A stretch of 32,261 bases of DNA from an uncultured Elusimicrobia bacterium (GTDB lineage Bacteria > Elusimicrobiota > Elusimicrobia > UBA1565 > UBA9628), in NCBI GenBank assembly GCA_903830945.1, contig CAIKVT010000008.1:1-32261 (forward strand), read 5' to 3'. The notes below the pieces were generated by a model. The model had not been told where the DNA came from, ran no database searches, and saw only the letters and a program-made list of their open reading frames with translations. Below, one piece after another: positions 1-32,087 of the stretch. The position numbers and the translations under genes are program-made. The first letter of the stretch is position 1. Every line of letters starts with the position of its first letter.

Positions 1-1385
1 AGCCCGTCGGAGACGTTGCCGCCCTTGATGAGCCCCTTGGCCGCCTTGTCCACGCTCATGGCGATGCGCGCCGAGTTGCCGACGGTGGCCACGATGAGGT
101 TGGTCTTGCGCATCAAGCCCCGCTCGTCGGTCTCATAGTGATGGATAAGAGTACCACGAGGCGCTTCCACCACGCCCACGCCGACCTTCGGCGTCTTGGT
201 CGGGAGCGTGCGGAACTCCTTGGAGGTGATCTGCGGGTCGTTGACCAGCTGCACGATGGTCTCCGCGGCCTGGATCATCTCCACGACGCGCGCATAGTGA
301 TTGGCCAGCGTATGGTGCACGGGCTTGCCGCCCAGGATCTTGAAGTACTCCTCGTAGGCCTTCTGCGCCTCGAAAGTGGCCATGCCGTCGGCCGCGTTGA
401 GGCGCGCCATGGGCGCCACCGCGTAGATGCCGGAGCTTCCCCCCTCCACGAATCCCTTCCAGCCAACACCTTTGAGGAACGGGAACTTAATGTAGCTCCA
501 AGGCTCCACGTGTTCGTTGATGTGCTCCAGGTATTTCTGGACGGGGAACTTGGCGTACTCCTTGCCTTCCGGCGTCACCACCCGCACGTCCCCATCGTAG
601 AAGTTCACCTTGTTGTTCTTATCCACCAGCCCCATGTAGTAGGTCTTGTGGGTGAAAGCGTCCGAGGTGATGAGTTTGACGTAGGCCTCGTTCTTAAGGA
701 CGATGTCCTTGAAGACCTGCAGGGTGAACTTGGCGAACTCCAGGCCCTCGGCCGCGACCTGCTTGAACTCCGCGATCTGGTCCGCAGAGATGCCCTTGGC
801 CACGCCGCCCGGCAGGCCCAGCACCGGATGGATGACCTTGCCGCCCGCGTAGTTGATGATCTCGCGCAGGCGCCGGCGCATGGAGATGACCTTCTTGCCC
901 ACGTCCAGGCCGACCTTGCCGATGACGCCGATCACGTTGCGCAGCTCCTTGGGCGCGTCGGGCCCCACGATGAAGTCCGGGCCGCCGAGGATGTAAACGT
1001 GCAAGGCGTGGTCCTCGAGAATGAAGGTATTGTAAACCAGCTCGCGGATCTTGCGTCCCACCGGGTGGCACTCGACCTGATAGAGGTCGTCTAAAGCCTT
1101 GGCCGCGGCCATATGATGCGCCGTGGGGCAGACCCCGCAGATGCGCGAGGTGATCTGGGGCATGTCCTCGGAAGGGCGGCCCAGGCTGAAGACCTCGAAG
1201 CCCCGCAGCTCCGGGATCTGCAAGTAGGCATGGTCCACGTCTCCCTGGTCGTTGAGGAAGATGTCGATCTTGCCGTGGCCTTCCAGACGCGTGATGGGGT
1301 CGATGGAGATGCGGCGATTCTGAATATACTGATTGTTGGCGAGCTTCTGCGCCTTATCGAAGATCTGCTGCGCGTTCTTATCCAT
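1..1385 (-). CDS. mvhA: F420-non-reducing-type [NiFe] hydrogenase large subunit MvhA (3' end outside window)
   Basis: Large subunit of a group 3 [NiFe] hydrogenase, which holds the Ni-Fe site where H2 is cleaved or formed in the cytoplasm. About 461 codons are visible on the minus strand and the frame is still open at position 1, so the C-terminal DPCxxC ligand motif lies outside the window. The start is ATG at 1385 with AGGAG about 10 nt upstream, 11 nt after the mvhG stop. The N-terminus carries the family motif around RLEGHG (residues 33-38, including Glu35). RICGVCPTAH (residues 81-90) contains the first two metal-ligand cysteines, Cys83 and Cys86. It is the last visible gene of the hdr-mvh unit. 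Family assignment is firm. The substrate role (H2 uptake or evolution) cannot be read from sequence. Confidence 0.95.
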   Translation of the reverse strand, partial: MDKNAQQIFDKAQKLANNQYIQNRRISIDPITRLEGHGKIDIFLNDQGDVDHAYLQIPELRGFEVFSLGRPSEDMPQITSRICGVCPTAHHMAAAKALDDLYQVECHPVGRKIRELVYNTFILEDHALHVYILGGPDFIVGPDAPKELRNVIGVIGKVGLDVGKKVISMRRRLREIINYAGGKVIHPVLGLPGGVAKGISADQIAEFKQVAAEGLEFAKFTLQVFKDIVLKNEAYVKLITSDAFTHKTYYMGLVDKNNKVNFYDGDVRVVTPEGKEYAKFPVQKYLEHINEHVEPWSYIKFPFLKGVGWKGFVEGGSSGIYAVAPMARLNAADGMATFEAQKAYEEYFKILGGKPVHHTLANHYARVVEMIQAAETIVQLVNDPQITSKEFRTLPTKTPKVGVGVVEAPRGTLIHHYETDERGLMRKTNLIVATVGNSARIAMSVDKAAKGLIKGGNVSDG

Positions 1386-1396
1386 TGATGCCGCTC

Positions 1397-2362
1397 CTAG
1401 TTAAGCTTCCGTCGTAAGATGCACTTGGAAAGCCCATAGCGATAGAAAGTCCCGATGGGATCCGGGATTCCGTCCAACACGGCGTCGATGTCTTTTTCTT
1501 CCTTGGGCACGATGTTGGAGAACACCGAAGACACGAATTTCGCGCCTTGGTCCTTGACGCGCGAGGTCGGCCCAAAGCACCCGGTGCAGGGCATGTTGCC
1601 CGACGGGCAAAGGGCCTCGCAGCCCGAGCGCGTGGCCGGGCCCATGCAGACCAGGCCTTGGGCCAGGAGACATTTCTCCGGGTCGATCTGCACCTGATGG
1701 GGACGCTTGAACTCGGCCAAAGCCAGATCCGCGGGCTTGGAATCCTTGCGCTTGCACTCCTCGCAGAGCGCGATGTCGGGCGAAAGGACCGTTCCACGGG
1801 CCGGCAGCTTGCCCGCCAGGATGGCCTGCACCGCGCTCATGATGATCTTGGGCGTGGGCGGGCAGCCGGGCAGGTAGTAGTCCACCTCGATGACCTGGTC
1901 CAGGGAGCGCACCATGTTATGGAGCACGGGCAAGGTCAAGGTGCGGCCCTCGTCCACGGTCGAGGTCTGCGGCCGGATCTTCTGCGGGTTGTCGATGCCC
2001 GGGCAGTCCTCATAGACGAACTTGAGGATGTCTTCTTTCTTGAATTGGTTGGCCAGGGCCGGGATGCCGCCGGAGTTGGCGCAGGCGCCAAAGGAGACCA
2101 CGACCTGGGCCTTGCGGCGCAGCATGTGGACCCATTCCTCCTGCTCGGAAGTGCGGATCGCGCCGTTGATGAAGGCCACCGCGACGGACTTGTCCGGCCG
2201 GGCCGCTATGTCGGCTTTCTTGAAGTCCATAGCCACGGGCCAGAGCACGATGTCCACGGCTTCCACGACCTTGAGGATGTCCTCGGCAAGATCCACCACG
2301 GCTTCTTCGCAGCCGCCGCAGGACGCGCACCAGTAAAAAGCGACCTTAGGTTTATCGGGCAT
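1397..2362 (-). CDS. mvhG: F420-non-reducing-type hydrogenase small subunit MvhG
   Basis: Small, FeS-relay subunit of the [NiFe] hydrogenase, passing electrons between the Ni-Fe site in MvhA and MvhD. The chosen start gives 321 residues. The N-terminus has WCASCGGCEEAV (residues 11-22), the proximal-cluster motif. GACANSGG and LPGCPP follow, and a cysteine-rich C-terminal half contains CEEC, CLLAQGLVCMG and the stretch around MPCTGCFGP, as expected for the medial and distal clusters. ATG at 2362 is preferred over an in-frame ATG at 2383 because GGAGGT lies 5 nt upstream of 2362 and the family N-terminus begins close to the CxxC motif. The start overlaps the mvhD stop by 11 bp, suggesting translational coupling. 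Confidence 0.94.
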   Translation of the reverse strand: MPDKPKVAFYWCASCGGCEEAVVDLAEDILKVVEAVDIVLWPVAMDFKKADIAARPDKSVAVAFINGAIRTSEQEEWVHMLRRKAQVVVSFGACANSGGIPALANQFKKEDILKFVYEDCPGIDNPQKIRPQTSTVDEGRTLTLPVLHNMVRSLDQVIEVDYYLPGCPPTPKIIMSAVQAILAGKLPARGTVLSPDIALCEECKRKDSKPADLALAEFKRPHQVQIDPEKCLLAQGLVCMGPATRSGCEALCPSGNMPCTGCFGPTSRVKDQGAKFVSSVFSNIVPKEEKDIDAVLDGIPDPIGTFYRYGLSKCILRRKLN

Positions 2363-2843
2363 GGGCCACCTCCGTTGGGGCATCGGAGTTGACGTGAGCT
2401 TCCAGCTCCTCGATCTCCTTATCCCATTCTTTAAATTTTCCGGGCATATCGAGCGGGCCCAGGGCGCGGACCTTGGCTACCATGTCGTTGACCGTGACCT
2501 TGACCTTCTCGCCCTCAGCTCCGGAGATCCACTCCAGACGGAAACGGCCATCCTCTATGCCCATATCCTTGAGCATGCGATTGAGCATGCGCATGCGGCG
2601 CAAAGTCTTGTAATTGCCTTCCGCGTAGTGACAGTCGCCGGGATGGCACCCCCCCAGGAGCACCCCGTCGGCGCCCTTGGCGAAAGCATCCATCACGAAC
2701 TGTGGGTCCACCCGGCCGGAGCACATCACCCGGATGACGCGAACGTTGGGGGCGTACTTGAGGCGCGAGACGCCGGCCAGGTCCGCCGCGGTGTAGGTGC
2801 ACCAGTTGCAGAAGAACGCCACGATCTTAGGTTCGAAGCTCAT
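2352..2843 (-). CDS. mvhD: Methyl-viologen-reducing hydrogenase delta subunit MvhD
   Basis: Iron-sulfur protein that links the hydrogenase to heterodisulfide reductase subunit HdrA. It has 163 residues, near the family's usual length. Visible cysteines are Cys12 and Cys15 (FFCNWCTY), Cys41 (VMCSGRVDP), Cys66 and Cys71 (GGCHPGDCHY); these are the conserved FeS ligands of the MvhD family. The start ATG overlaps the hdrA stop as ATGA, and its own stop overlaps the mvhG start by 11 bp. MvhD lies between hdrA and mvhG, consistent with the electron path HdrA-MvhD-MvhG-MvhA. No fusion to HdrA is seen, although such fusions exist in other lineages. Confidence 0.95.
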   Translation of the reverse strand: MSFEPKIVAFFCNWCTYTAADLAGVSRLKYAPNVRVIRVMCSGRVDPQFVMDAFAKGADGVLLGGCHPGDCHYAEGNYKTLRRMRMLNRMLKDMGIEDGRFRLEWISGAEGEKVKVTVNDMVAKVRALGPLDMPGKFKEWDKEIEELEAHVNSDAPTEVAHAR

Positions 2844-4849
2844 TTTCCCAATACCCCCTCGATCTCGCTGAAGATCTCCTCATCCTCGAACAGATTCTGC
2901 CTGATGGAGCCCGACGGGCAGGCCGCGGCGCAGACCCCGCAGCCCTTGCAGATCACCTCGTTGATGACGGCCTTCTTCTTGGCCTCGTCGAAGGTGATAG
3001 CCGTATAGGGGCACAGGGGCACGCAGGACTTGCAGCCGCAGCACTCCTCCTCGACTACGTGCGAGGTATTGGGCTCGAGCTCCACATGGCCCGCGTCGAT
3101 GAGGACCAAGGCCTCCGCGGCGGCCGCGCCAGCCTGGGCCACGGTGTCCGGGATGTCCTTAGGCGACTGGCAGGCGCCGGCGATGAAGATGCCGTCCGTG
3201 AAAGTGTTCACGGGCGCCAGCTTGGGATGGCGCTCCTGGAAGAATCCCTCGTTGCCGCAGCCGATGTTGAAGCGGCGGCGCACCTCCTGGGCGTCGGCCT
3301 GGGGCTCCAGGCCCGTGGCAAGCACCACCATGTCCACTGGCACACGCCGGACAAAGCCCGCCAAGGTATCCTCCACCCGCAGGACCAGCTTGCCCTCCTC
3401 TTCCGGCGTCATGGCCCAGTCCGTGACCTCGGCCACGCGGCCGCGGATGAAGTGCACTCCCTCGGAGAGGAGCTTGTCGTAGAATTCCTCGTAAGCCTTG
3501 CCCGCGGCGCGGATGTCGATGTAGAAGTTGTACACCTCGGCGCCCGAGTGCTCCTTGATGAGGTGCGCGAGCTTAAGCGAGTACATGCAGCACACGCGCG
3601 AGCACCACTTATTGGTCTTCTCGTCGCGCGATCCCACGCAGTGGATGATGCCCACGGCCTTGGGATGCTTACCGTCGCGCAGCACCACCTCGCCGGAGGT
3701 CGGCCCCGAAGCGTTGACCAGCCGCTCGATCTCCAGAGCCGTGAATACGCCCGGGTATTTTCCGTAGCCGTAGTGGGGCTCTTTCTTGGCGTCGAAGGTC
3801 TTGAATCCCGTGGCCAGGATGATGGCACCGACCTGCAGTTCCTTGACCTCTTCCTTTTGGTCGAAGTCGATGGCCTTCCGATCGCAGGCCTCCGCGCAGG
3901 ACTTCTTACACTTGCCGGTCTTGAACTGGATGCAGGTCTCCGGGTCGATCATCACGACCTTAGGGGTGGCCTGCGGGAAGTCGATGTAGACGGGCTTGCG
4001 CTTGCCCAGGCCCTGGTTGAACTTGTCCGCGAACTTCGGCTCCTTGAAGACGCAGGCGTCGATGCACTCCATGCAGCCGACGCAGAGGTCTTCTATCACG
4101 TAGCGCGGCTTGCGCTTGACCGTGACCTTGTAGTTGCCGACGTAGCCCTCCACCTTGGACACCTCGGAGTAGGTCCAGAGCGTGATGTTCGGGTGCGACT
4201 TGACCGCGGACATCTTCGGGGTCAGGATGCAAGCCGCGCAGTCCAGGGTCGGGAAGGTCTTGTCGAAGGCGGCCATATGGCCGCCGATGGTGGACTCGCG
4301 CTCGACCAGCGTGACCTTCTTGCCCGCGTTGGCCAAGGTCAAAGCCGCGTGGATGCCGGCGATGCCGCCGCCCACGACCAGGACGTTGGGGTCCACGGGG
4401 ACCTGCTGCTTCTCCAGGGCCTTATGGAAGCGCACCCGGTACACAGCGGCGCGGGCCAGGTCCTTGGCCTTGGCGGTCGCGGCCTTCTTATCCTCGTGCA
4501 CCCAGGAGGCGTGCTCGCGGATGTTGACCATCTGGAAGAAGAAGGAGTTCAGCCCGCCCTTGGCCGCGGCCTTGCGAAAGGTCTCCTCGTGCAGGTTCGG
4601 AGAGCAGGCCGCCACCACGAGCCGTTCCAACTTGTGCTCCCTGATGTCCTGGGCGATCATCTCCTGGCCCGGGTCCGAGCACATGTACTTGTAATCGCGC
4701 GAGACGACCACGCCGGGCAGGCCCGCCGCATATTTGGCGACATCGGCCACGTCGATGGTGCCCGCGATGTTGGACCCGCAATGGCAGATGTAGAAGCCGA
4801 TGCGCGGCAGCCCGTTGGGCTGTTGCTTGTTTGCGTTATTGTCGGCCAT
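2840..4849 (-). CDS. hdrA: Heterodisulfide reductase subunit A, FAD-dependent electron-bifurcating subunit
   Basis: Flavin subunit proposed to split electrons between ferredoxin and the HdrBC site. It has 669 residues. The N-terminal cluster domain shows Cys22, Cys24, Cys57 (YMCSDPGQ) and Cys82 (AACSPN). GGGIAG (160-165) is the FAD dinucleotide fold, followed by the HdrA-specific DCAACILTPKM (203-213). An inserted ferredoxin domain has CVGCMECIDAC (256-266) and a second Cys group after MIDPETC. Further on are HCVGSRDE and WCSRVCCMYS, both typical of HdrA. The C-terminus is a two-cluster ferredoxin, CCGCKSCVPLC (603-613) and CKGCGVCAAAC (634-644). No selenocysteine codon is evident. GGGAGGT precedes the ATG. 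It sits 3 bp after hdrB and overlaps mvhD by 4 bp. Confidence 0.96.
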   Translation of the reverse strand: MADNNANKQQPNGLPRIGFYICHCGSNIAGTIDVADVAKYAAGLPGVVVSRDYKYMCSDPGQEMIAQDIREHKLERLVVAACSPNLHEETFRKAAAKGGLNSFFFQMVNIREHASWVHEDKKAATAKAKDLARAAVYRVRFHKALEKQQVPVDPNVLVVGGGIAGIHAALTLANAGKKVTLVERESTIGGHMAAFDKTFPTLDCAACILTPKMSAVKSHPNITLWTYSEVSKVEGYVGNYKVTVKRKPRYVIEDLCVGCMECIDACVFKEPKFADKFNQGLGKRKPVYIDFPQATPKVVMIDPETCIQFKTGKCKKSCAEACDRKAIDFDQKEEVKELQVGAIILATGFKTFDAKKEPHYGYGKYPGVFTALEIERLVNASGPTSGEVVLRDGKHPKAVGIIHCVGSRDEKTNKWCSRVCCMYSLKLAHLIKEHSGAEVYNFYIDIRAAGKAYEEFYDKLLSEGVHFIRGRVAEVTDWAMTPEEEGKLVLRVEDTLAGFVRRVPVDMVVLATGLEPQADAQEVRRRFNIGCGNEGFFQERHPKLAPVNTFTDGIFIAGACQSPKDIPDTVAQAGAAAAEALVLIDAGHVELEPNTSHVVEEECCGCKSCVPLCPYTAITFDEAKKKAVINEVICKGCGVCAAACPSGSIRQNLFEDEEIFSEIEGVLGK

Positions 4850-4852
4850 GAC

Positions 4853-5713
4853 TTACCTCCCGGCGAGGACGACGTCGGCGGAGATGATGCTGCGCTTAAG
4901 ACCCAGCTCATCGGCACTCAGGCCCATGGCCAGACCAAGGACCTGGGTGAAGTACACGACAGGCATGTCGACCGCTTCGAATTTTCGGGCGATCTGGTCC
5001 TGATAGCCGTCAAGGTTGAACTGGCAGAGCGGGCAGACCGTGACCACGGCCTCAGCCCCGCGCTTCTTGGCTTCCTTGAGGATGATGTAGGCCAGGCGCA
5101 GGCCGACCTCGGGCACGGTGCCGGTGAGGCTGCCGCCGCAGCAGCGCGTCTTGAGAGGGAAGGTCACGTTTTCCGCGCCCGCCGCGGCCAGCAGCTTGTC
5201 CATGGTCTTCGGATCGTACTGGTCGTCAAAGCTCGCGAAAGGGCGCACGATCTGGCAGCCGTAATAGGGCGCGAACTTGTGGCCCTTGAGCGGGCTCTTG
5301 ATCCGCTTGGCGATCGCATCCAGGCCCACATCGTTGATCAGGACATCGAGGGGATGGCGGACCTTGACCTTGCCGTGGTATTCCAGGCCGGCGGCGGCCA
5401 GCGCCTTGGTCACTCTGGCGCGGATCTCCGGGTGGTCCTGGAGGCTCTTCTGCGCCTTGTTGAGGCCCAGGTAGCAGGCACTGCAAGGCGCGATGACGTC
5501 GAGCTCTTCGCGCTCCGCGATGGCCAGATTGCGCCCCGCCAGAGCGTAGGACTTGGCCTCGTCGACGGACATGTAGGCCGTGGCGCCGCAGCAGTTCCAG
5601 TCGTCGATCTCCTTGAGTTCGACACCGAGGGCCCGGAACACGGCCAGGAGGGATTCCTCGTAGGCCTTGCCGGTCCCTTTGAGAGAGCAGCCGGGAAAAT
5701 ACAGGTATTTCAC
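4853..5713 (-). CDS. hdrB: Heterodisulfide reductase subunit B (two CCG domains)
   Basis: Catalytic subunit that, in methanogens, reduces the CoM-S-S-CoB disulfide on non-cubane [4Fe-4S] clusters. It has 286 residues with two complete CCG domains: Cys9, Cys41-Cys42-Gly, Cys77-x2-Cys80, and Cys153, Cys191-Cys192-Gly, Cys227-x2-Cys230. All cluster ligands are therefore present, which argues for a real disulfide- or thiol-type active site and not a degraded paralogue. The start ATG overlaps the hdrC stop (ATGA). The physiological substrate in a bacterium cannot be named from this sequence. CCG domains also occur in lactate and succinate-type oxidoreductases, but the hdrC and hdrA neighbours settle the assignment. 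Confidence 0.95.
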   Translation of the reverse strand: MKYLYFPGCSLKGTGKAYEESLLAVFRALGVELKEIDDWNCCGATAYMSVDEAKSYALAGRNLAIAEREELDVIAPCSACYLGLNKAQKSLQDHPEIRARVTKALAAAGLEYHGKVKVRHPLDVLINDVGLDAIAKRIKSPLKGHKFAPYYGCQIVRPFASFDDQYDPKTMDKLLAAAGAENVTFPLKTRCCGGSLTGTVPEVGLRLAYIILKEAKKRGAEAVVTVCPLCQFNLDGYQDQIARKFEAVDMPVVYFTQVLGLAMGLSADELGLKRSIISADVVLAGR

Positions 5714-6300
5714 TTCGCCACCTCCGTTTTGTCGGCTTCCAGGGCGTTCAAGATCTTACGCAGCTCATCCTTGCGGCGGATGGAGTCGGGCAAAAAGGAC
5801 ATGCGGCCCGTGCGCATGAGATTGAGCCCCAGGCCGGTCATGCTCAGGAACTTGAACCAATTGGTGCGCAGGAACAGGTCGATGACCAGCAGGGTCTCGT
5901 TGACCCGGCCCCACATGAAGATCATGCGGCCGAACTCCTTGGCCAGGACCGGGATGGGGAAACGCTTCGGGTAGACGCCCTCCTGGATGGCCCGCCGCTT
6001 CAAGGCGTACATGATGTCGGTGACCTGGATCTTCTTGGGGCATTCCACCCGACAGGCGTAGCAGCTGGCGCACAGCCAGATGGTCAGAGAGCTCAGGACC
6101 TCATTCTTGAAGCCCTCCCGGGCCAGGTTGATGAGCCGCCGGGGCGTGTAGTCCATGTACAAGGACAAAGGGCAGGTGGCGCTGCAGACTCCGCACTGGA
6201 TGCAGTGGCGCAGGTTCTCGCCGCCGGTCTGGCTGGTCGCCCAGCGAGCGAAATCAGCGTCGCGATCCGCCTCGTACTTCATCATCTGCGTTATGGCCAT
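5710..6300 (-). CDS. hdrC: Heterodisulfide reductase subunit C (two [4Fe-4S] ferredoxin subunit)
   Basis: Small ferredoxin-like subunit carrying electrons from HdrA to HdrB. It has 196 residues with two classical cluster motifs, CIQCGVCSATCP (Cys33/36/39/43) and CASCYACRVECP (Cys77/80/83/87). The second half is helical and ends with a charged tail. AAGGAGGT lies 7 nt before the ATG, one of the best ribosome-binding sites in this unit, and pckA ends 22 bp upstream. This is the widest gap in the operon, so HdrABC-MvhADG translation may be reset here. The order hdrC-hdrB-hdrA-mvhD-mvhG-mvhA keeps all six subunits contiguous. Confidence 0.94.
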   Translation of the reverse strand: MAITQMMKYEADRDADFARWATSQTGGENLRHCIQCGVCSATCPLSLYMDYTPRRLINLAREGFKNEVLSSLTIWLCASCYACRVECPKKIQVTDIMYALKRRAIQEGVYPKRFPIPVLAKEFGRMIFMWGRVNETLLVIDLFLRTNWFKFLSMTGLGLNLMRTGRMSFLPDSIRRKDELRKILNALEADKTEVAK

Positions 6301-10221: not shown

Positions 10222-11163
10222 TCAACGCGGGCTGCGGCAGGAGACCCAGAACTGCCGCATATCCTTAGGGACCCGGGCCATGAACCGGACCGGGCGGCAC
10301 GTCGCAGGATGGGCGAATTCTATCTTATAGGCATGCAGCATGAGCCGCGGCGGCTGCGGCTGCCCGGGACCTGGCCGGTCGCACTCAGGGTCTCCCATGA
10401 CCGGATGGCCGAGAAGATTGAGGTGCACCCGGATCTGGTGGGTCCGGCCGGTCAAAGGCAAGGCCTCGACCAAGGCCCCGGCCGCGCATGACTCCAACAC
10501 GGCGAAACCGGTGGACGCTTCCTTGCCGAAAGGCGTCGCGATGACCCGCCGATGCCCTGGCTTGCGGCCCACCGGCGCTTCCACGCTGGACCTTTTTTCC
10601 AGCCACTGGCCACGCACCACGGCGCGATAGGTCTTGGAGACCACCCGGTCCTTGAACTCGCGGATCAAAGTCTCCGAGGCGGCCGGGGTCTTGGCCACAA
10701 GCAAGACCCCGCTCGTGCACCGGTCGAGGCGATGCACGATGCCGCAGCGCGGAGTCCCGGCCGCGCTGATGCCCGGGCGCTCGCGCAGCAGGATGCCGGC
10801 GAGATTGGGTTCGTCCTCGGCGAGCGCGGCCTCGGGCACGACGAGCCAGCTGCCGCCCAGCGGGTGCATGAGCAGGCCCGCGGGCTTGTTGAGGACCAGC
10901 AGATCGCGGTCCTCATGGAGCACCCAGTCTCCGAACGCGCCATAGGGCTTGGCCCACTCCGGGGTCAAGAACTCGACGGCCACGGACTCCCCGACGCGCA
11001 AGCGCCTGTCGGCGTCCGCGAGCTCGCCGCCCACCCGCGCCGCGCCCCGCGCGATCAGCTTCTTGAGATGGCTGCGGCTCAGATGCGGAAAATGGCCTGC
11101 CAAGAACACATCGAGCCGCTGACGCGGGGTGTCCGCGACGAAGGACGCCGGAGTTTGTTTCAT
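10222..11163 (-). CDS. RluA-family pseudouridine synthase with N-terminal S4 domain
   Basis: RNA uridine isomerase of 313 residues. An S4 RNA-binding domain occupies about residues 14-65 (QRLDVFLAGHFPHLSRSHLK). The catalytic domain starts near 85. HRLDRCTSG (144-152) holds the catalytic aspartate Asp147, followed by LTGRTHQIRVHL, the C-terminal RluA signature. ATG at 11163 is chosen because it overlaps the lgt stop as ATGA; a longer in-frame reading to 11358 runs inside lgt and has no family similarity. Members with an S4 domain usually modify 23S rRNA (RluD/RluC type), but the exact site cannot be told. It ends the MBL-lgt-lgt-rlu unit; RluA-type genes beside lgt are common in bacteria. Confidence 0.93.
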   Translation of the reverse strand: MKQTPASFVADTPRQRLDVFLAGHFPHLSRSHLKKLIARGAARVGGELADADRRLRVGESVAVEFLTPEWAKPYGAFGDWVLHEDRDLLVLNKPAGLLMHPLGGSWLVVPEAALAEDEPNLAGILLRERPGISAAGTPRCGIVHRLDRCTSGVLLVAKTPAASETLIREFKDRVVSKTYRAVVRGQWLEKRSSVEAPVGRKPGHRRVIATPFGKEASTGFAVLESCAAGALVEALPLTGRTHQIRVHLNLLGHPVMGDPECDRPGPGQPQPPRLMLHAYKIEFAHPATCRPVRFMARVPKDMRQFWVSCRSPR

Positions 11164-11945
11164 ATCGGCCGCACCCCCCTGCGCGCCATGACCACGGCGA
11201 CGGCCGCAATCCCGGTCAAGGCCAGCCATTGGGAGATGGAGAAAGGCGGCAAGGAGGCGCCCCGGTCGTCGAAGCGGAAAAACTCGATGACGAACCGTGC
11301 GGCGCTGTAGAAAGCGACATAGGCCAAGAACACCGTCCCCGCGACCAGCTTTCGGCACTTGACGCGAGGCAGGAGGACCTTAAGCAGGAAAAATCCTATG
11401 CCAAGGTTGGCCGCGGACTCGTAGAGCTGGGTCGGATGCAGGGGGATGCCCCAAAGCTCTCGCGGCGTCACGCTGGCCGGGTCTCCTCCCAGGGCGATGC
11501 CCCAGGGCAGACTCGTGGGGCGGCCGTAGCAGCAGCCCGCGGCCAGGCAACCCAGGCGACCAAGCGCATGGCCGAAAGGCAGAGCCACGCCGATATAATC
11601 GGCGACAGCGAGAAAACTAAATCCCAGCCAGAACTTGACGACGGTGCCCATGGCCAAGGCTCCCAGCACTCCGCCGAAGAAGACGAACCCGTAGCGGAAG
11701 TCCCCGACGAGGCTCAGCCGGCCGTCGAGGATGTCCCGATAGGACACGGCCCAGTACAGGAGCTTGCCGCCGACGATGGCTCCGAAGAACAGGCAGTAGA
11801 TGAGTCGCCAAAACCCATTCTCATCGAGCCCCAGCGCGGCCATCTGGGACTTGAGCCACAGGATGGCCACGAGGTAACCGGCGGCCACGGCGGCGCCGTA
11901 GGTGGACAGGTGGAGCGGCCCGAGCGCGATCAGGATTGGGTGCAT
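11160..11945 (-). CDS. lgt: Prolipoprotein diacylglyceryl transferase, second tandem copy
   Basis: Inner-membrane enzyme that transfers diacylglycerol from phosphatidylglycerol to the lipobox cysteine of prolipoproteins. It has 261 residues and about seven hydrophobic segments. Family features are an N-terminal HPILIALGPLHLSTYG, FFGGVLG (89-95), GRLGCLAAGCCYGRPT (129-144) and HPTQLYE. The Lgt signature has the Cys-rich GRxGCxxAGCC form and not GRxGNFxN; this form is widespread in Lgt of several phyla. It overlaps the upstream lgt by 16 bp in another frame. Of the two copies this one keeps the better GG loop, so it is the more likely housekeeping enzyme. That ranking is inference. Confidence 0.93.
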   Translation of the reverse strand: MHPILIALGPLHLSTYGAAVAAGYLVAILWLKSQMAALGLDENGFWRLIYCLFFGAIVGGKLLYWAVSYRDILDGRLSLVGDFRYGFVFFGGVLGALAMGTVVKFWLGFSFLAVADYIGVALPFGHALGRLGCLAAGCCYGRPTSLPWGIALGGDPASVTPRELWGIPLHPTQLYESAANLGIGFFLLKVLLPRVKCRKLVAGTVFLAYVAFYSAARFVIEFFRFDDRGASLPPFSISQWLALTGIAAVAVVMARRGVRPI

Positions 11946-12721
11946 GGCTTGCTCCTGGCCCAGGCGATGAGGACCAGCCCTGCCGACAGCAGGACCAGGC
12001 AGAGGGCCTGCCCGCCGGTCAGTCCAAAAACCCCGCGGACCGTGTCGCCGCGGAAGAATTCCACGCCGAAGCGCAGCATCCCGTAGGCGGCGAAGTACAG
12101 GCCGCTGATGGTCCCAAAAGGCAGGTCGCCCCTCTCGACGCGGGGAACCACAAGGAACCAGAGGCCCAGAAATATCCCCGCCTCCCCGAAGGCTTCATAG
12201 AGCTGCGTGGGATGAACGGGGGTACCGAGCAAAGCCTTGTCGATCAGACAGACGGGGTCCACAAAACGGACCGCCCAGGGCATCCGCGTGGGCCGGCCGA
12301 AGCAGCAGCCGGCCGCGAAGCATCCAAGCCTGCCGAAGATGTGCCAGAATGGGGCGACCAGGCTCACGTAGTCGAGCAACCTTAAAAAATGAATGCGGCG
12401 ACGGCGGGCCAGGAGCCAGACTGCGCCCACGACGCCGGCGAAGGCGCCCAGCACCGAGAAGCCCCGGCTCACCGAAAATACCGCCGACCACATGTCCGAG
12501 CCGCGGAATGGGACATACTCGATGATGTAAAGGCCGCGGCCTCCCAGGAAACCACCGAAGAGGATGACGTTGACCAGGAGCCAAAAATCATCTTCGCTGC
12601 GCAGGCCCATATTCTCTCTCTTGGCGCTCCAGATGAGGCACGAGAGGACGCCGCCGAGGGCGATAAGGACGCCGTAGCTGAACATGCGGAACTTGCCGAA
12701 GGTCAGCAGGACCGGATGCAT
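11930..12721 (-). CDS. lgt: Prolipoprotein diacylglyceryl transferase paralogue, first tandem copy
   Basis: Second Lgt-family membrane protein in the same operon, 263 residues. It has the same layout as its neighbour: HPVLLTFGKFRMFSYG at the N-terminus, GRLGCFAAGCCFGRPT (130-145), HPTQLYE and FGVEFFRGD near the C-terminus. The loop that is FFGGVLG in the neighbour reads VLGAFAG (90-96), so the Gly-Gly pair is lost. The two proteins are clearly diverged outside the motifs, suggesting an old duplication or acquisition and not a recent copy. It starts 3 bp after the MBL-hydrolase stop and overlaps the next lgt by 16 bp. It may have a different lipid or protein substrate range; this is untested. 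Confidence 0.9.
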   Translation of the reverse strand: MHPVLLTFGKFRMFSYGVLIALGGVLSCLIWSAKRENMGLRSEDDFWLLVNVILFGGFLGGRGLYIIEYVPFRGSDMWSAVFSVSRGFSVLGAFAGVVGAVWLLARRRRIHFLRLLDYVSLVAPFWHIFGRLGCFAAGCCFGRPTRMPWAVRFVDPVCLIDKALLGTPVHPTQLYEAFGEAGIFLGLWFLVVPRVERGDLPFGTISGLYFAAYGMLRFGVEFFRGDTVRGVFGLTGGQALCLVLLSAGLVLIAWARSKPCTQS

Positions 12722-21897: not shown

Positions 21898-23373
21898 TCA
21901 CAATCTCCCTTGCAGAAGTTTCTTCCCCGCATCAACGAGCGCGGCGAGCTTTTTGGAGTCGTGGGCCTCCGCATAGAGGCGAAACACAGGCTCCATACCC
22001 GAGGAGCGCAGGCCCAGCCAGCTTCCGTCGCGCAGGATGAACTTGAAGCCGTCGGATTGGTCAATGCGCCACACGGAGCCGCCAGCCAGTTCCAACGGCG
22101 GCCGCACGCGCAGGCGTTCTTCAAGCTCCTGAATCTCCCGCGGCCGGGACATGGTGAAATCCTCACGGGTATTGTAGAAAGGGCCGACGCGCTTAAAAAG
22201 GCGATCCCGCACGACGCTCAACGGCTTGCGTTCGCAGGCGACGAGCTCAAGCATGAGCAGGCAGGCCAGCAGCCCATCCTTATTCGGCACATGGCCGCGG
22301 ATGGAGAGTCCGCCGGATTCCTCGCCGCCCAGGACGAACTGCCCGGTGCGCAACAGGTCGCCGATGAACTTAAATCCCACCGGGGTCTCCCGGGCTTCGA
22401 GGCCGTAGGATTTGGCCACGGCGTCGACGAAGTGGGAGGTCATGACGGTGCGCGCCACCTTACCCTTCATTCCCCGATTGACCACCAGGTGCTCCAGGGC
22501 CAGGGCCAACACCTCATTGGCAGGGATCCAGCGCCCGCCGGCGTCGAGGACGCCGAAGCGGTCGCCGTCGCCGTCGCAGGCCAAGCCGAGGCTGAGCTTC
22601 TTTTTGGCCACGACCTGCGCCAGTTCGGTCAAGGACTCCGGCGTGGGCTCCGGCGCGCGGCCGCCGAAGAGCACGTCACGCTGCTCATGGAGGCCGACCA
22701 CCTCCACACCCAGCCCCTCCAGAAAGGGCCGCATGTGATTGCGTGCGGACCCGTGCATGACGTCGACAGCGACCTTAAGCCCGGCCCTGCGAATCATCTT
22801 GACGTCCAGGAGGGAGGAGAGTTGCTTGAAATAGCCGGGGCGCAAGTCCGCCGTTTCAATCCACGATTCGCGCAGGGACCGGTCCAGGGACATGGTCTTA
22901 ATAGCGTGCGCCCCGAGGAGTTCTATGCGCCGCTCGATATCCTCGGTCACATCCAGCGTCGCGGCCCCGCCCCAAAAGGACATCCACTTGATGCCGTTGA
23001 TCTGGGCGGGACTCTGCGAGGCGGTGATCATAAGGCCGCCGACCGCCCTGCGCGCCAGAACGGCGGCGGCGACCGCGGGCGTGGGCACGTCGGAGGCGGA
23101 AAGGACGGTCTTAATGCCGTCCAGCGCGAAGACCGCAGCCACCTCATGGGCAAAATCCTCAGAAAGAAAGCGGCTGTCATAGCCGAGCACGATCACCGGC
23201 ACGGGGCTGCGCTTGCCTTCGCCGAGCCAGGACTGATAGTCGGGCGAGGTCATGCCGTAATCCGGGTTCTCCTTTACGGCGGCGGAAATGGCATGCGCCA
23301 CCTTCCTAATATTGAGAAAAGTAAACTCATCGCAAAGTTGCGCTCTCCAACCGCCCGTGCCGAATCTAATCAT
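21898..23373 (-). CDS. Phosphoglucomutase/phosphomannomutase family (alpha-D-phosphohexomutase)
   Basis: Sugar-phosphate mutase of 491 residues, four-domain family. Visible: N-terminal RFGTGGWRA (3-11), the phosphoserine loop ITASQSPAQINGIK (116-129) with Ser119, the metal loop CDGDGDRFGVLD, the sugar loop GGEESGGLS, and the phosphate-binding RSSGMEPVFRLYAEA near the C-terminus. The phosphoserine loop differs from the common TASHNP: His is Gln120 and Asn is Ser121. Ser119 and the metal loop are intact, so it is likely active, but glucose, mannose or other specificity cannot be assigned. First gene of pgm-eno-ftsB. No Shine-Dalgarno sequence precedes the ATG. Confidence 0.9.
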   Translation of the reverse strand: MIRFGTGGWRAQLCDEFTFLNIRKVAHAISAAVKENPDYGMTSPDYQSWLGEGKRSPVPVIVLGYDSRFLSEDFAHEVAAVFALDGIKTVLSASDVPTPAVAAAVLARRAVGGLMITASQSPAQINGIKWMSFWGGAATLDVTEDIERRIELLGAHAIKTMSLDRSLRESWIETADLRPGYFKQLSSLLDVKMIRRAGLKVAVDVMHGSARNHMRPFLEGLGVEVVGLHEQRDVLFGGRAPEPTPESLTELAQVVAKKKLSLGLACDGDGDRFGVLDAGGRWIPANEVLALALEHLVVNRGMKGKVARTVMTSHFVDAVAKSYGLEARETPVGFKFIGDLLRTGQFVLGGEESGGLSIRGHVPNKDGLLACLLMLELVACERKPLSVVRDRLFKRVGPFYNTREDFTMSRPREIQELEERLRVRPPLELAGGSVWRIDQSDGFKFILRDGSWLGLRSSGMEPVFRLYAEAHDSKKLAALVDAGKKLLQGRL

Positions 23374-23556
23374 ATCGTGCGGGCGATGTTAGCATATGAA
23401 GGGATGTAAGGCAATGGATTTCTTAGTCGGGACCACGCCCGGCTGGAAACTGTCGAAAAATGGGCCCTTAGTCCTATTGACACCCAGGCCCTTTGGCCTA
23501 TGGCAAACAGACCGAAGAGCATTATACTCTAGTGACAACGAACGCAGACCGACCTC

Positions 23557-23584
23557 TTGACAGGACCCCACAGGGCGCTATACT
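23557..23584 (+). promoter_or_regulatory. Strong sigma-70 promoter for the secreted-protein gene
   Basis: -35 TTGACA (23557-23562), 16 bp spacer, -10 TATACT (23579-23584). Expected start near 23591, about 11 nt before the ATG at 23602. A second TTGACA at 23477-23482 and a TATACT at 23523-23528 lie upstream in the same 228 bp intergenic region but do not pair at a good spacing. No pgm promoter on the other strand is convincing. Confidence 0.6.
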
Positions 23585-23601: not shown

Positions 23602-24609
23602 ATGCATCCAAGAACGGCATGGTTGGCCCTCCTTCTGGGACCGGGCATTGCGGCTGCGGCCGCCTCCGCCTCTCCCGCCGACAGTTCCACCCAATTCGAG
23701 CAACACTCGGTCAAAGTCGGCACGGTCACCTATAAGCTGCCGGACAATTGGGTGTTCATCAAAACGAAGTGCACGGATACCGACCAGGCCTGCCGGAACA
23801 AGGCCGCAGCCTTCCTCGCCAAGTACCAGGACTCCAAGGGCAACGATTACTCGTTCCTCAGCAATCAGAACTGGCTGCAATGCCTCGGCAACTGCCCAGG
23901 CGGGTCAGCCAGTTCCGGCTTCGACCTCGACTACTGCATGCAGTCGCCAAGCTGCATGAAAGACATCCAGGGGACGCTGGCGGCGGCGCAGGCCGAAGCG
24001 GCGATGTCCGCGGACCCGCAGAATGCGCCGGCTCTCGGCGAAGCTTACGGCCAGACGCAAGCGGCGCCTTTTCTGGAGAATCCAAACCAGCTGCCGATGC
24101 TCTCAGACGACACGTCCTCCAGCCGCCTGACCGACAAGCCGGCACCTTCCCACGTGACGAGTGCGGACGGACAAGTCCTCTCCAAGGGAGGACCGCCGGC
24201 CGGCCGAAAACCCTCTTATTCCGCCGATCCCACCGCCGGCGGAACGAGGCCTGACGGAAACCCGGCAGAAAACGGCAGCGCGCAGGGCGATCCCACTTTG
24301 GCTTATGCAAGGAGAATTTTCCCCGAAAGCCTGGATTCGGGAATGGACGGGACTACCGAGGGGATCGTACAATCCTCCCCCTTTCTGGACGACCACAGGA
24401 GATTCTATTTGGCCAGCAACTCCGCCCCCACTGACCTGCACGCTCTCGAAAAGGTCGGCTCTGATATCATCAATCCGATCAGCCAGCAGGTCATAGGCGA
24501 CGGAACCTCAGGCCGCACTGCCTTCGACGGCCAATCCGCCAACCTACCGAAAGACGCGAAACGCAGGTGCGGCACCAACTTTTTCGGCGTAGAAAACTGC
24601 CCGAAATAG
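23602..24609 (+). CDS. Secreted protein of unknown function with eight cysteines
   Basis: I do not recognise this 335-residue protein. Residues 1-24 form a signal peptide (WLALLLGPGIAAAAASASPA), with cleavage probably after an Ala-Ser-Ala stretch. The mature N-terminal part (about 30-125) is compact and has six cysteines (57, 64, 94, 98, 112, 118). The middle (about 125-250) is rich in Ala, Pro, Gly, Ser and Asp and looks disordered. The last two cysteines (323, 333) lie in RRCGTNFFGVENC at the end. The even number of cysteines suggests disulfides in the periplasm or outside the cell. It has a strong promoter and is not in an obvious operon; the next gene, a membrane protein, has its own promoter-like site. 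Confidence 0.75.
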   Translation: MHPRTAWLALLLGPGIAAAAASASPADSSTQFEQHSVKVGTVTYKLPDNWVFIKTKCTDTDQACRNKAAAFLAKYQDSKGNDYSFLSNQNWLQCLGNCPGGSASSGFDLDYCMQSPSCMKDIQGTLAAAQAEAAMSADPQNAPALGEAYGQTQAAPFLENPNQLPMLSDDTSSSRLTDKPAPSHVTSADGQVLSKGGPPAGRKPSYSADPTAGGTRPDGNPAENGSAQGDPTLAYARRIFPESLDSGMDGTTEGIVQSSPFLDDHRRFYLASNSAPTDLHALEKVGSDIINPISQQVIGDGTSGRTAFDGQSANLPKDAKRRCGTNFFGVENCPK

Positions 24610-31085: not shown

Positions 31086-32087
31086 TCACGGCCGGTCCGG
31101 CGGTGGGGGCTGAAGGACAGGCACTGCCGGAGCCGGAATCGTCCCGCTTGACACCGCCGGTGGAATGACAGGCGCTGCAGCCGGCGCGCCCCACCGGTAC
31201 GCCACGCTCGCCCGGTTCGAGTAGCCAAGCGCGCCGAAGGGGACGATCGCGTAATCGAAGTCAAAATCATGGACCCGGCAGCCGATCCCGGCCGTGATCC
31301 CCACCCCGGCGTCATTGCTCTGGTTGTAGCCCAGCCGCAGAGCCAGCACCTTGAACACCCGCGTCTCCACGCCCACGGACACGCGCGCCGAATCGTTGCG
31401 CTCCTTGACCACATCCAGCGCCAAGGCGTTGCTCGCGCCCAGCCAGTCGCGCCGGTACGCCCCACCCAACCGCCAGGTCAGCGGCTGGTTCTCGTGCGCC
31501 TGGTCATAACTCACCGCCGGCCCCATGTTCAGAAGCGCCGCCCCCGCCGACAGCCCCGGCACCCGCGCCACCGCGTAGTGCGCGCCTAAGTCGAACGAGA
31601 CGTTGTCCCGCGGCGTCTGGTCTATGGTCTCCCGGATGTACTTGGCCCCGCCTCCGACAGAAAAATCTTCGGTCAGCCTACGGCCGTAGCCCGCGCTCAG
31701 CGCCAGGTCTGAGAGCGATGTATCCCCAAGCCCGCTCCCCGACGTGTTGTTCAGCGTGGTCTGCTGCACGTCGCCGAAGCTCAAGTAATTGATGCTCGCG
31801 CCCAAGCCCAGAGGCGAGGCGAAATCGAGGTACTCCTGGGTCACGCCCTGGAAGTACTGGTTGTGCATAAAACTCACTTCGTTGCGCTCCGTGCGCGCCA
31901 GGCCCGCCGGATTATAGCCCAAGGCGCCGGCACCCGTACCCAAAACCGTGTAAGCCCCGCCCATGGCCGCGGCCCGCGCATTGGAGTCCAGAAGGAGGAA
32001 TTGATAGGCGTCCGCGCCGCCTCCGGCCTGGACGAATGCCGGAGCCAGCAGGGCCGAGGCGACGACTATCCCTATGATCTTTTTCAT
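31086..32087 (-). CDS. PorV/PorQ-family outer-membrane beta-barrel protein
   Basis: Outer-membrane barrel of 333 residues. Residues 1-21 are a signal peptide (MKKIIGIVVASALLAPAFVQA). The mature start DSNARAAAMGGAYTVLGTG and LGYNPAGLARTERNEVSFMH is the diagnostic PorV/UPF0164 pattern. Alternating strands continue to SNRASVAYRW near residue 300. A Pro/Ala-rich tail of about 32 residues follows, ending PPPPDRP, which is unusual because such barrels normally end at the last strand. PorV proteins take part in type IX secretion in Bacteroidota; in other phyla the role is unproved. It starts directly after the stop codon of the upstream secreted protein. Confidence 0.85.
   Translation of the reverse strand: MKKIIGIVVASALLAPAFVQAGGGADAYQFLLLDSNARAAAMGGAYTVLGTGAGALGYNPAGLARTERNEVSFMHNQYFQGVTQEYLDFASPLGLGASINYLSFGDVQQTTLNNTSGSGLGDTSLSDLALSAGYGRRLTEDFSVGGGAKYIRETIDQTPRDNVSFDLGAHYAVARVPGLSAGAALLNMGPAVSYDQAHENQPLTWRLGGAYRRDWLGASNALALDVVKERNDSARVSVGVETRVFKVLALRLGYNQSNDAGVGITAGIGCRVHDFDFDYAIVPFGALGYSNRASVAYRWGAPAAAPVIPPAVSSGTIPAPAVPVLQPPPPDRP

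Follow-up and report, generated by a model that had tools for sequence, protein, structure and literature searches.

The window analysed here, a 32,261-nt stretch of DNA taken as a whole from an uncultured Elusimicrobia bacterium, holds a gene for a probably exported 335-aa protein that stands divergent from a phosphohexomutase gene (Table 1). The open reading frame was confirmed as the earlier note had described it, with an N terminus that satisfies the simple home-made rule by which we called signal peptides throughout, six cysteines in the N-terminal part and two at the end. The low-complexity middle reported in the same note stands as a bias of composition and not as a repeat: residues 126–260 consist of 83% GSPATDNQEKR and 16% ILVFMWYC, against 68% and 31%, respectively, in residues 26–125. 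A lipoprotein reading was rejected, as the signal peptide is not followed by a lipobox cysteine and the earliest cysteine is residue 57.

Table 1 Features of the divergent locus, numbered from the first letter of the window
Feature	Position	Strand	Basis
Phosphohexomutase gene (PGM_PMM), fixed divergent neighbour	21898–23373	-	Domain match; conserved neighbour
Upstream palindrome of the array, TRGGYC-N4-GRCCYA, 11/12	23461–23476	+	Consensus match
TTGAC-type spacer between the palindromes	23477–23484	+	Upstream-region comparison
Second palindrome, 11/12, exactly 24 bp after the first	23485–23500	+	Consensus match
Array promoter: −35-like ATGGCA, 17 nt, TATACT; 9/12	23500–23528	+	Promoter scan
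Second promoter: TTGACA (23557–23562), 16 nt, TATACT (23579–23584); 11/12	23557–23584	+	Promoter scan
Gene of the exported protein	23602–24609	+	335-aa open reading frame; frame conserved, dN/dS 0.40
Likely signal peptide, residues 1–25 (boundary approximate)	23602–23676	+	Rule-based
Cysteine-bearing head, residues 26–125, Cys 57, 64, 94, 98, 112, 118	23677–23976	+	Sequence, alignment
Ala/Pro/Ser/Gly-rich middle, residues 126–260, probably disordered	23977–24381	+	Composition; very low model confidence
Tail, residues 261–335, Cys 323 and 333	24382–24606	+	Sequence, alignment

Searches with the 335-aa protein gave no match above the curated cut-offs of Pfam and NCBIfam and none among PDB sequences, in line with the earlier reader, who recognised no family. 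Two sub-threshold Pfam candidates were discarded as non-members: a SpaA_4 prealbumin-like domain for the window protein (E 0.075; 14.3 bits against a cut-off of 27.3) and a GDNF/GAS1 domain for its relative in genome G042 (E 0.096; 13.9 against 22 bits). Phage and plasmid records contained no match to the window protein, Rfam gave none anywhere in the window, and our literature search found no paper on this protein or on the palindrome motif described below. AF2 models, built from three sequences each, were of too low a quality for structural comparison, with a mean pLDDT of 49.7 for the head and 33.3 for the whole protein.

Relatives were sought in a family set of 44 genomes and a phylum set of 340, many of them split into hundreds of contigs (G000 is the window's own genome). 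A single-protein search of the family set matched four genomes, all in the window's genus. Three of the six other genomes of the genus carry relatives, with identities to the window protein of 65% (G040), 48% (G038) and, over the matched part, 30% (G042), so the gene is not the orphan it had been taken for. Elsewhere in the genus, G043 has just 166 bp between the mutase and the channel-type gene and lacks the exported-protein gene, G039 has a different two-cysteine open reading frame with a signal-like start in its place, and G041 (79% complete) yielded no mutase for this site. A profile of the head run against the 340 phylum genomes added a single, weak match in another genus (G022, E 3e-4); matches of G044 and G012 to the low-complexity middle were discarded as products of composition. 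Among GTDB contigs, the single protein retrieved no relative, and a four-sequence alignment retrieved two loci (L036 and L037), the same as those of G038 and G042. The earlier note had also proposed a search for paralogues in the same genome; no second copy was found there, even at E ≤ 10.

Between G000 and G040, dN/dS was 0.40 for the gene (head 0.27, middle 0.53, tail 0.40) and 0.10 for the neighbouring mutase, and nothing in these ratios pointed to positive selection between the two genomes. By this measure the protein is fast-evolving yet constrained, and the gene-bearing members of the window's genus seem to share one lineage of it under ordinary constraint. Alignment of the four relatives placed C64, C94, C98, C112 and C118 in invariant columns, C64 within a gap-rich region of the G042 sequence; invariance does not extend to C57 or to either tail cysteine.

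As the G022 gene is likewise divergent from the same mutase, we searched by position. The mutase was detected in 39 of the 44 family genomes, and at 27 of the 38 readable sites (that of G009 lies at a contig end) an exported-protein-type open reading frame diverges from it, presence or absence being an open-reading-frame reading of the DNA upstream of the mutase. The gene occurs in genera g1, g2, g3, g5, g8, g11 and g12 and is missing from g6, g7, g9 and g10; the eleven gene-less sites are those of G043, G024, G025, G026, G028, G029, G030, G031, G033, G034 and G035. Contig ends truncate the positional genes of G018, G022 and G023, that of G036 contains masked bases, and in G010 another gene may intervene between it and the mutase. 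The 27 sites and a second G022 copy yield 28 positional proteins, 21 of which pass the signal-peptide rule. Those of G038, G042, G039, G001, G036 and G014 fail it and nonetheless have hydrophobic N-terminal stretches, and the G013 protein was checked minus its N terminus because its frame is split. In that single-contig genome (locus L063), the positional gene lies in two frames, through either a sequencing error or a real break.

In pairwise comparison of the positional proteins (G018, too short, omitted), 34 of 118 pairs within genera were linked at E ≤ 1e-3 and 1 of 233 pairs between genera, that of G042 and G022. Comparison of profiles gave strong links inside some groups and weak bridges between others, and no link between the window's group and the G005-, G004- or G011-type proteins. 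Across genera, the genes share their position and, in 24 of 28 cases, the array described below, but not detectable sequence homology; with so few inter-genus pairs linked, a common descent of all positional genes is putative.

Both this conserved position and a conserved element at 23461–23528 had been omitted from the earlier note. Upstream regions of the positional genes have a recurrent order, in which a TRGGYC-N4-GRCCYA palindrome, TTGACNNN, a second palindrome, a T[TG]GC core and, after about 16–17 nt, TATRCT follow one another; the array is a set of 16-bp palindromes abutting a sigma-70-like promoter. When each palindrome had to match the consensus at 10 or more of its 12 positions, a pair at a distance of exactly 24 bp was found upstream of 24 of the 28 genes. 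The exceptions are G037 (48 bp apart), G001 (25 bp), G027 (a single palindrome) and G042, where the gene is present and the array palindromes number zero. Scanning 1.4 kb of the window returned three promoter-like sites against a shuffle average of 0.3, and both promoters in Table 1 satisfy a sigma-70-type test of two hexamers at 16–18 nt. The near-consensus TTGACA-16-TATACT promoter, noticed before and suggested by the earlier note to give high expression, held up, 16-nt spacer included, upstream of the gene in all four gene-bearing members of the genus: it lies between the array and the start codon in G000, G040 and G038, and stands alone in G042.

These upstream regions also supplied the consensus, which leaves the genome-wide searches and the gene-less sites as its only independent controls. 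Within the window, the two palindromes form the sole pair scoring at least 20/24 (22/24), and 30 first-order Markov simulations of the window produced none. None of the 11 gene-less sites has the array; up to 400 bp from the mutase, the highest-scoring pair reached 13–17/24 there. Ten of these sites belong to other, more distant genera, and only G043 to the same one. Genome-wide searches covered 42 family genomes (all but G015 and G016). Half an array plus TTGAC gave 16 matches (control, 0), 13 of them at the gene or at the second G022 copy; this strict pattern misses the window's own array, which has a T at one R position. The full array with up to three mismatches gave 40 matches (control, 0). 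All 16 perfect full arrays lie at the gene or the second G022 copy, and the 17 matches away from the gene mostly carry 2–3 mismatches, several being intragenic or at contig ends; of these, we draw on those named in the text alone. A motif tried at the outset, GGCCTATGGC with one mismatch, was dropped as not above chance, with six occurrences in the window, a shuffle mean of 3.3 and 14 of 100 shuffles reaching six.

A single palindrome with the −35 core occurs 43 times in the 42 genomes (control, 1), 15 times at the gene or the G022 copy and 28 times elsewhere. At 20 of these 28 other sites, an open reading frame starts within 300 bp in the right direction. The signal-peptide rule is passed by 12 of the 20, two of which, those of G004 and G010, are related to the positional protein of G011, as against 71 of 307 background open reading frames taken by a GC-based picker with positional proteins included (p = 0.0007). 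Pfam, run on 19 of the 20 (all but L158), assigned exported-hydrolase types to several (GH25 twice, Amidase_2, S8 three times). Further matches were to OmpA, Lactamase_B (twice), Phosphodiest, Glyco_transf_9 (twice), AA_permease and a methyltransferase; the rest comprise one sub-threshold glycine-zipper match and four proteins without a family. The two GH25 genes lie in different genera, one in G011 and the other on contig C27 of the window's own genome (L162, 1075–1944), where it encodes an exported muramidase behind the only other exact single-element site of that genome. This site alone could be chance, as the sole control match also fell in the window's genome, which has two true matches. 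In G005, an M74 murein endopeptidase gene lies behind a match of both the half-array and the full-array searches. A shared exported role is opposed by the eight downstream proteins that fail the rule, and by some of apparently cytoplasmic function, namely the two heptosyltransferase-type GT9 enzymes and the methyltransferase; the permease counts likewise.

Taken together, these data lead us to propose, at a probability of about 0.5, that the gene, at a fixed divergent site beside the mutase, encodes an exported protein that evolves fast and shares its regulation with secreted lytic enzymes. The protein would be exported by the Sec route and would have disulphides in its head, then a long, flexible middle and a short tail; its gene keeps a fixed place in this family of Elusimicrobiota, transcribed away from the phosphohexomutase gene. 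The tandem operator, of two or three 16-bp palindromes at a 24-bp period, would probably be bound by a putative dimeric regulator adjacent to the −35 hexamer of a sigma-70-type promoter; both this period and the adjoining −35 hint at cooperative binding near RNA polymerase. Members of the window's genus that carry the gene have another, ordinary promoter nearer to it. The gene would then carry the tandem version of an operator common to a modest set of exported proteins, several of which are predicted to cut peptidoglycan or protein. As single elements precede exported hydrolase genes (GH25 muramidase, murein amidase and subtilases), deployment with a lytic or remodelling programme, extracellular or at the envelope, seems most likely. 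At or outside the surface, the protein would meet fast-changing partners, so that its sequence may drift fast as place and control are kept. The earlier note's suggestion of a lineage-specific component of the surface or envelope is plausible on these grounds, given the restricted relatives (its own genus and the weak G022 match among 340 phylum genomes), the single copy and an element common to exported murein hydrolases and proteases.

The low sequence similarity between types could also mean that the site beside the mutase works as an expression site with exchangeable contents, its array and promoter fixed and exported-protein genes of more than one lineage moved or recombined into it. Besides the mutually unrecognisable types, this tentative alternative draws on the G011-type protein, which stands at the mutase in G011 but at a second site in G004, G010 and G012 (E 1e-33 to 1e-37 against G011). 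There an array element precedes it and a class II tRNA synthetase gene lies nearby (the synthetase domain was confirmed by Pfam in G010 and G012), and the mutase site of these three genomes is occupied by another type. The two G022 copies, each with its own array, fit exchange as well, having heads of 52–67% identity and 3′ ends of 100%; these ends, however, reach contig ends, where assembly overlap can create identity. Fast divergence in place yields the same overall picture, and in the window's genus the gene follows one apparent lineage. A related and rather unlikely version would join exchange to the proposed co-regulation, the array-driven fixed site having its exported protein swapped or recombined between loci and acting as a surface-diversification site tied to secreted lytic enzymes.

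It is improbable that the array serves the mutase, or both genes, with the exported gene merely adjoining. The array does lie between the two divergent genes and its palindromes carry no orientation of their own, but its asymmetric parts (TTGAC, the −35 core and the −10) are oriented to the exported gene, it accompanies the second G022 copy, which has no adjoining mutase, and it is absent from the 11 sites where the mutase stands without the gene. A secreted toxin or bacteriocin whose active part varies would account for a fast-evolving, exported, cysteine-bearing protein sharing its element with lytic enzymes; we consider it more improbable still, as Pfam and NCBIfam gave no known toxin family, no immunity gene was seen, and the next gene downstream, for a conserved membrane protein of channel type, is retained in G043, which lacks the exported-protein gene. 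Decay or loss of function, which the fast divergence, the absence from G043 and the different open reading frame in G039 might suggest, is largely refuted by open frames, the dN/dS of the head and conserved promoters, and is very improbable. The reading that we prefer remains a fixed, array-controlled site for a fast-evolving exported protein deployed with lytic enzymes.

Envelope regulators such as WalR or Cpx control regulons that include secreted murein hydrolases. The present set resembles these regulons in its DNA element common to exported cell-wall hydrolases and other exported proteins. It differs in the palindromic 16-bp element, the 24-bp tandem array and a regulator that is putative, and in a tandem form mainly confined to one fast-evolving gene. 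Failed homology detection, a general explanation of lineage-specific, fast-evolving secreted genes (PMC7660931), has its likeness here in position recognising what sequence does not; the conserved regulatory array additionally marks the gene. If the proposal is right, the mostly uncultured Elusimicrobiota gain a candidate regulon defined by sequence, comprising secreted cell-wall and protein hydrolases and a fast-evolving exported protein, and the array would be a DNA handle for locating that protein where protein searches fail. The locus may also serve as a test case of whether 'orphan' genes are new or merely unrecognisable, in which position and control element either find counterparts missed by sequence comparison or expose real gene exchange at a fixed site.

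Several further observations concern the copies and their surroundings. The two array-driven copies of G022 (L042 and L016, on contigs C32 and C22) share an identical 3′ part, a possible gene-conversion tract or an assembly overlap. L132, L158 and L120 are the loci where a G011-type exported protein follows an array element and has a class II tRNA synthetase gene close by, and in G004 and G010 another exported-type open reading frame is divergent from the second-site gene. Downstream of the gene in G040 (L030, 10713–18619) and G038 (L031, 3–9265) come another small exported protein, which has no family, a PorV-like gene and a giant protein of >2000 aa, with a FlgD_ig domain in the sampled end of the G040 protein. 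The window itself encodes a PorV/UPF0164-like outer-membrane protein (31086–32087, minus strand). Its positions 3–6300 (minus strand) hold a row of genes for a nickel hydrogenase-type large subunit, an Oxidored_q6 subunit and a large FAD/4Fe-4S heterodisulphide-reductase-like protein, which we take to be Hdr/Mvh. Last, two adjacent prolipoprotein diacylglyceryl transferase (LGT) genes, each far above the cut-off, lie at 11160–12721 (minus strand), and the pair recurs in G038, G043 and G039.
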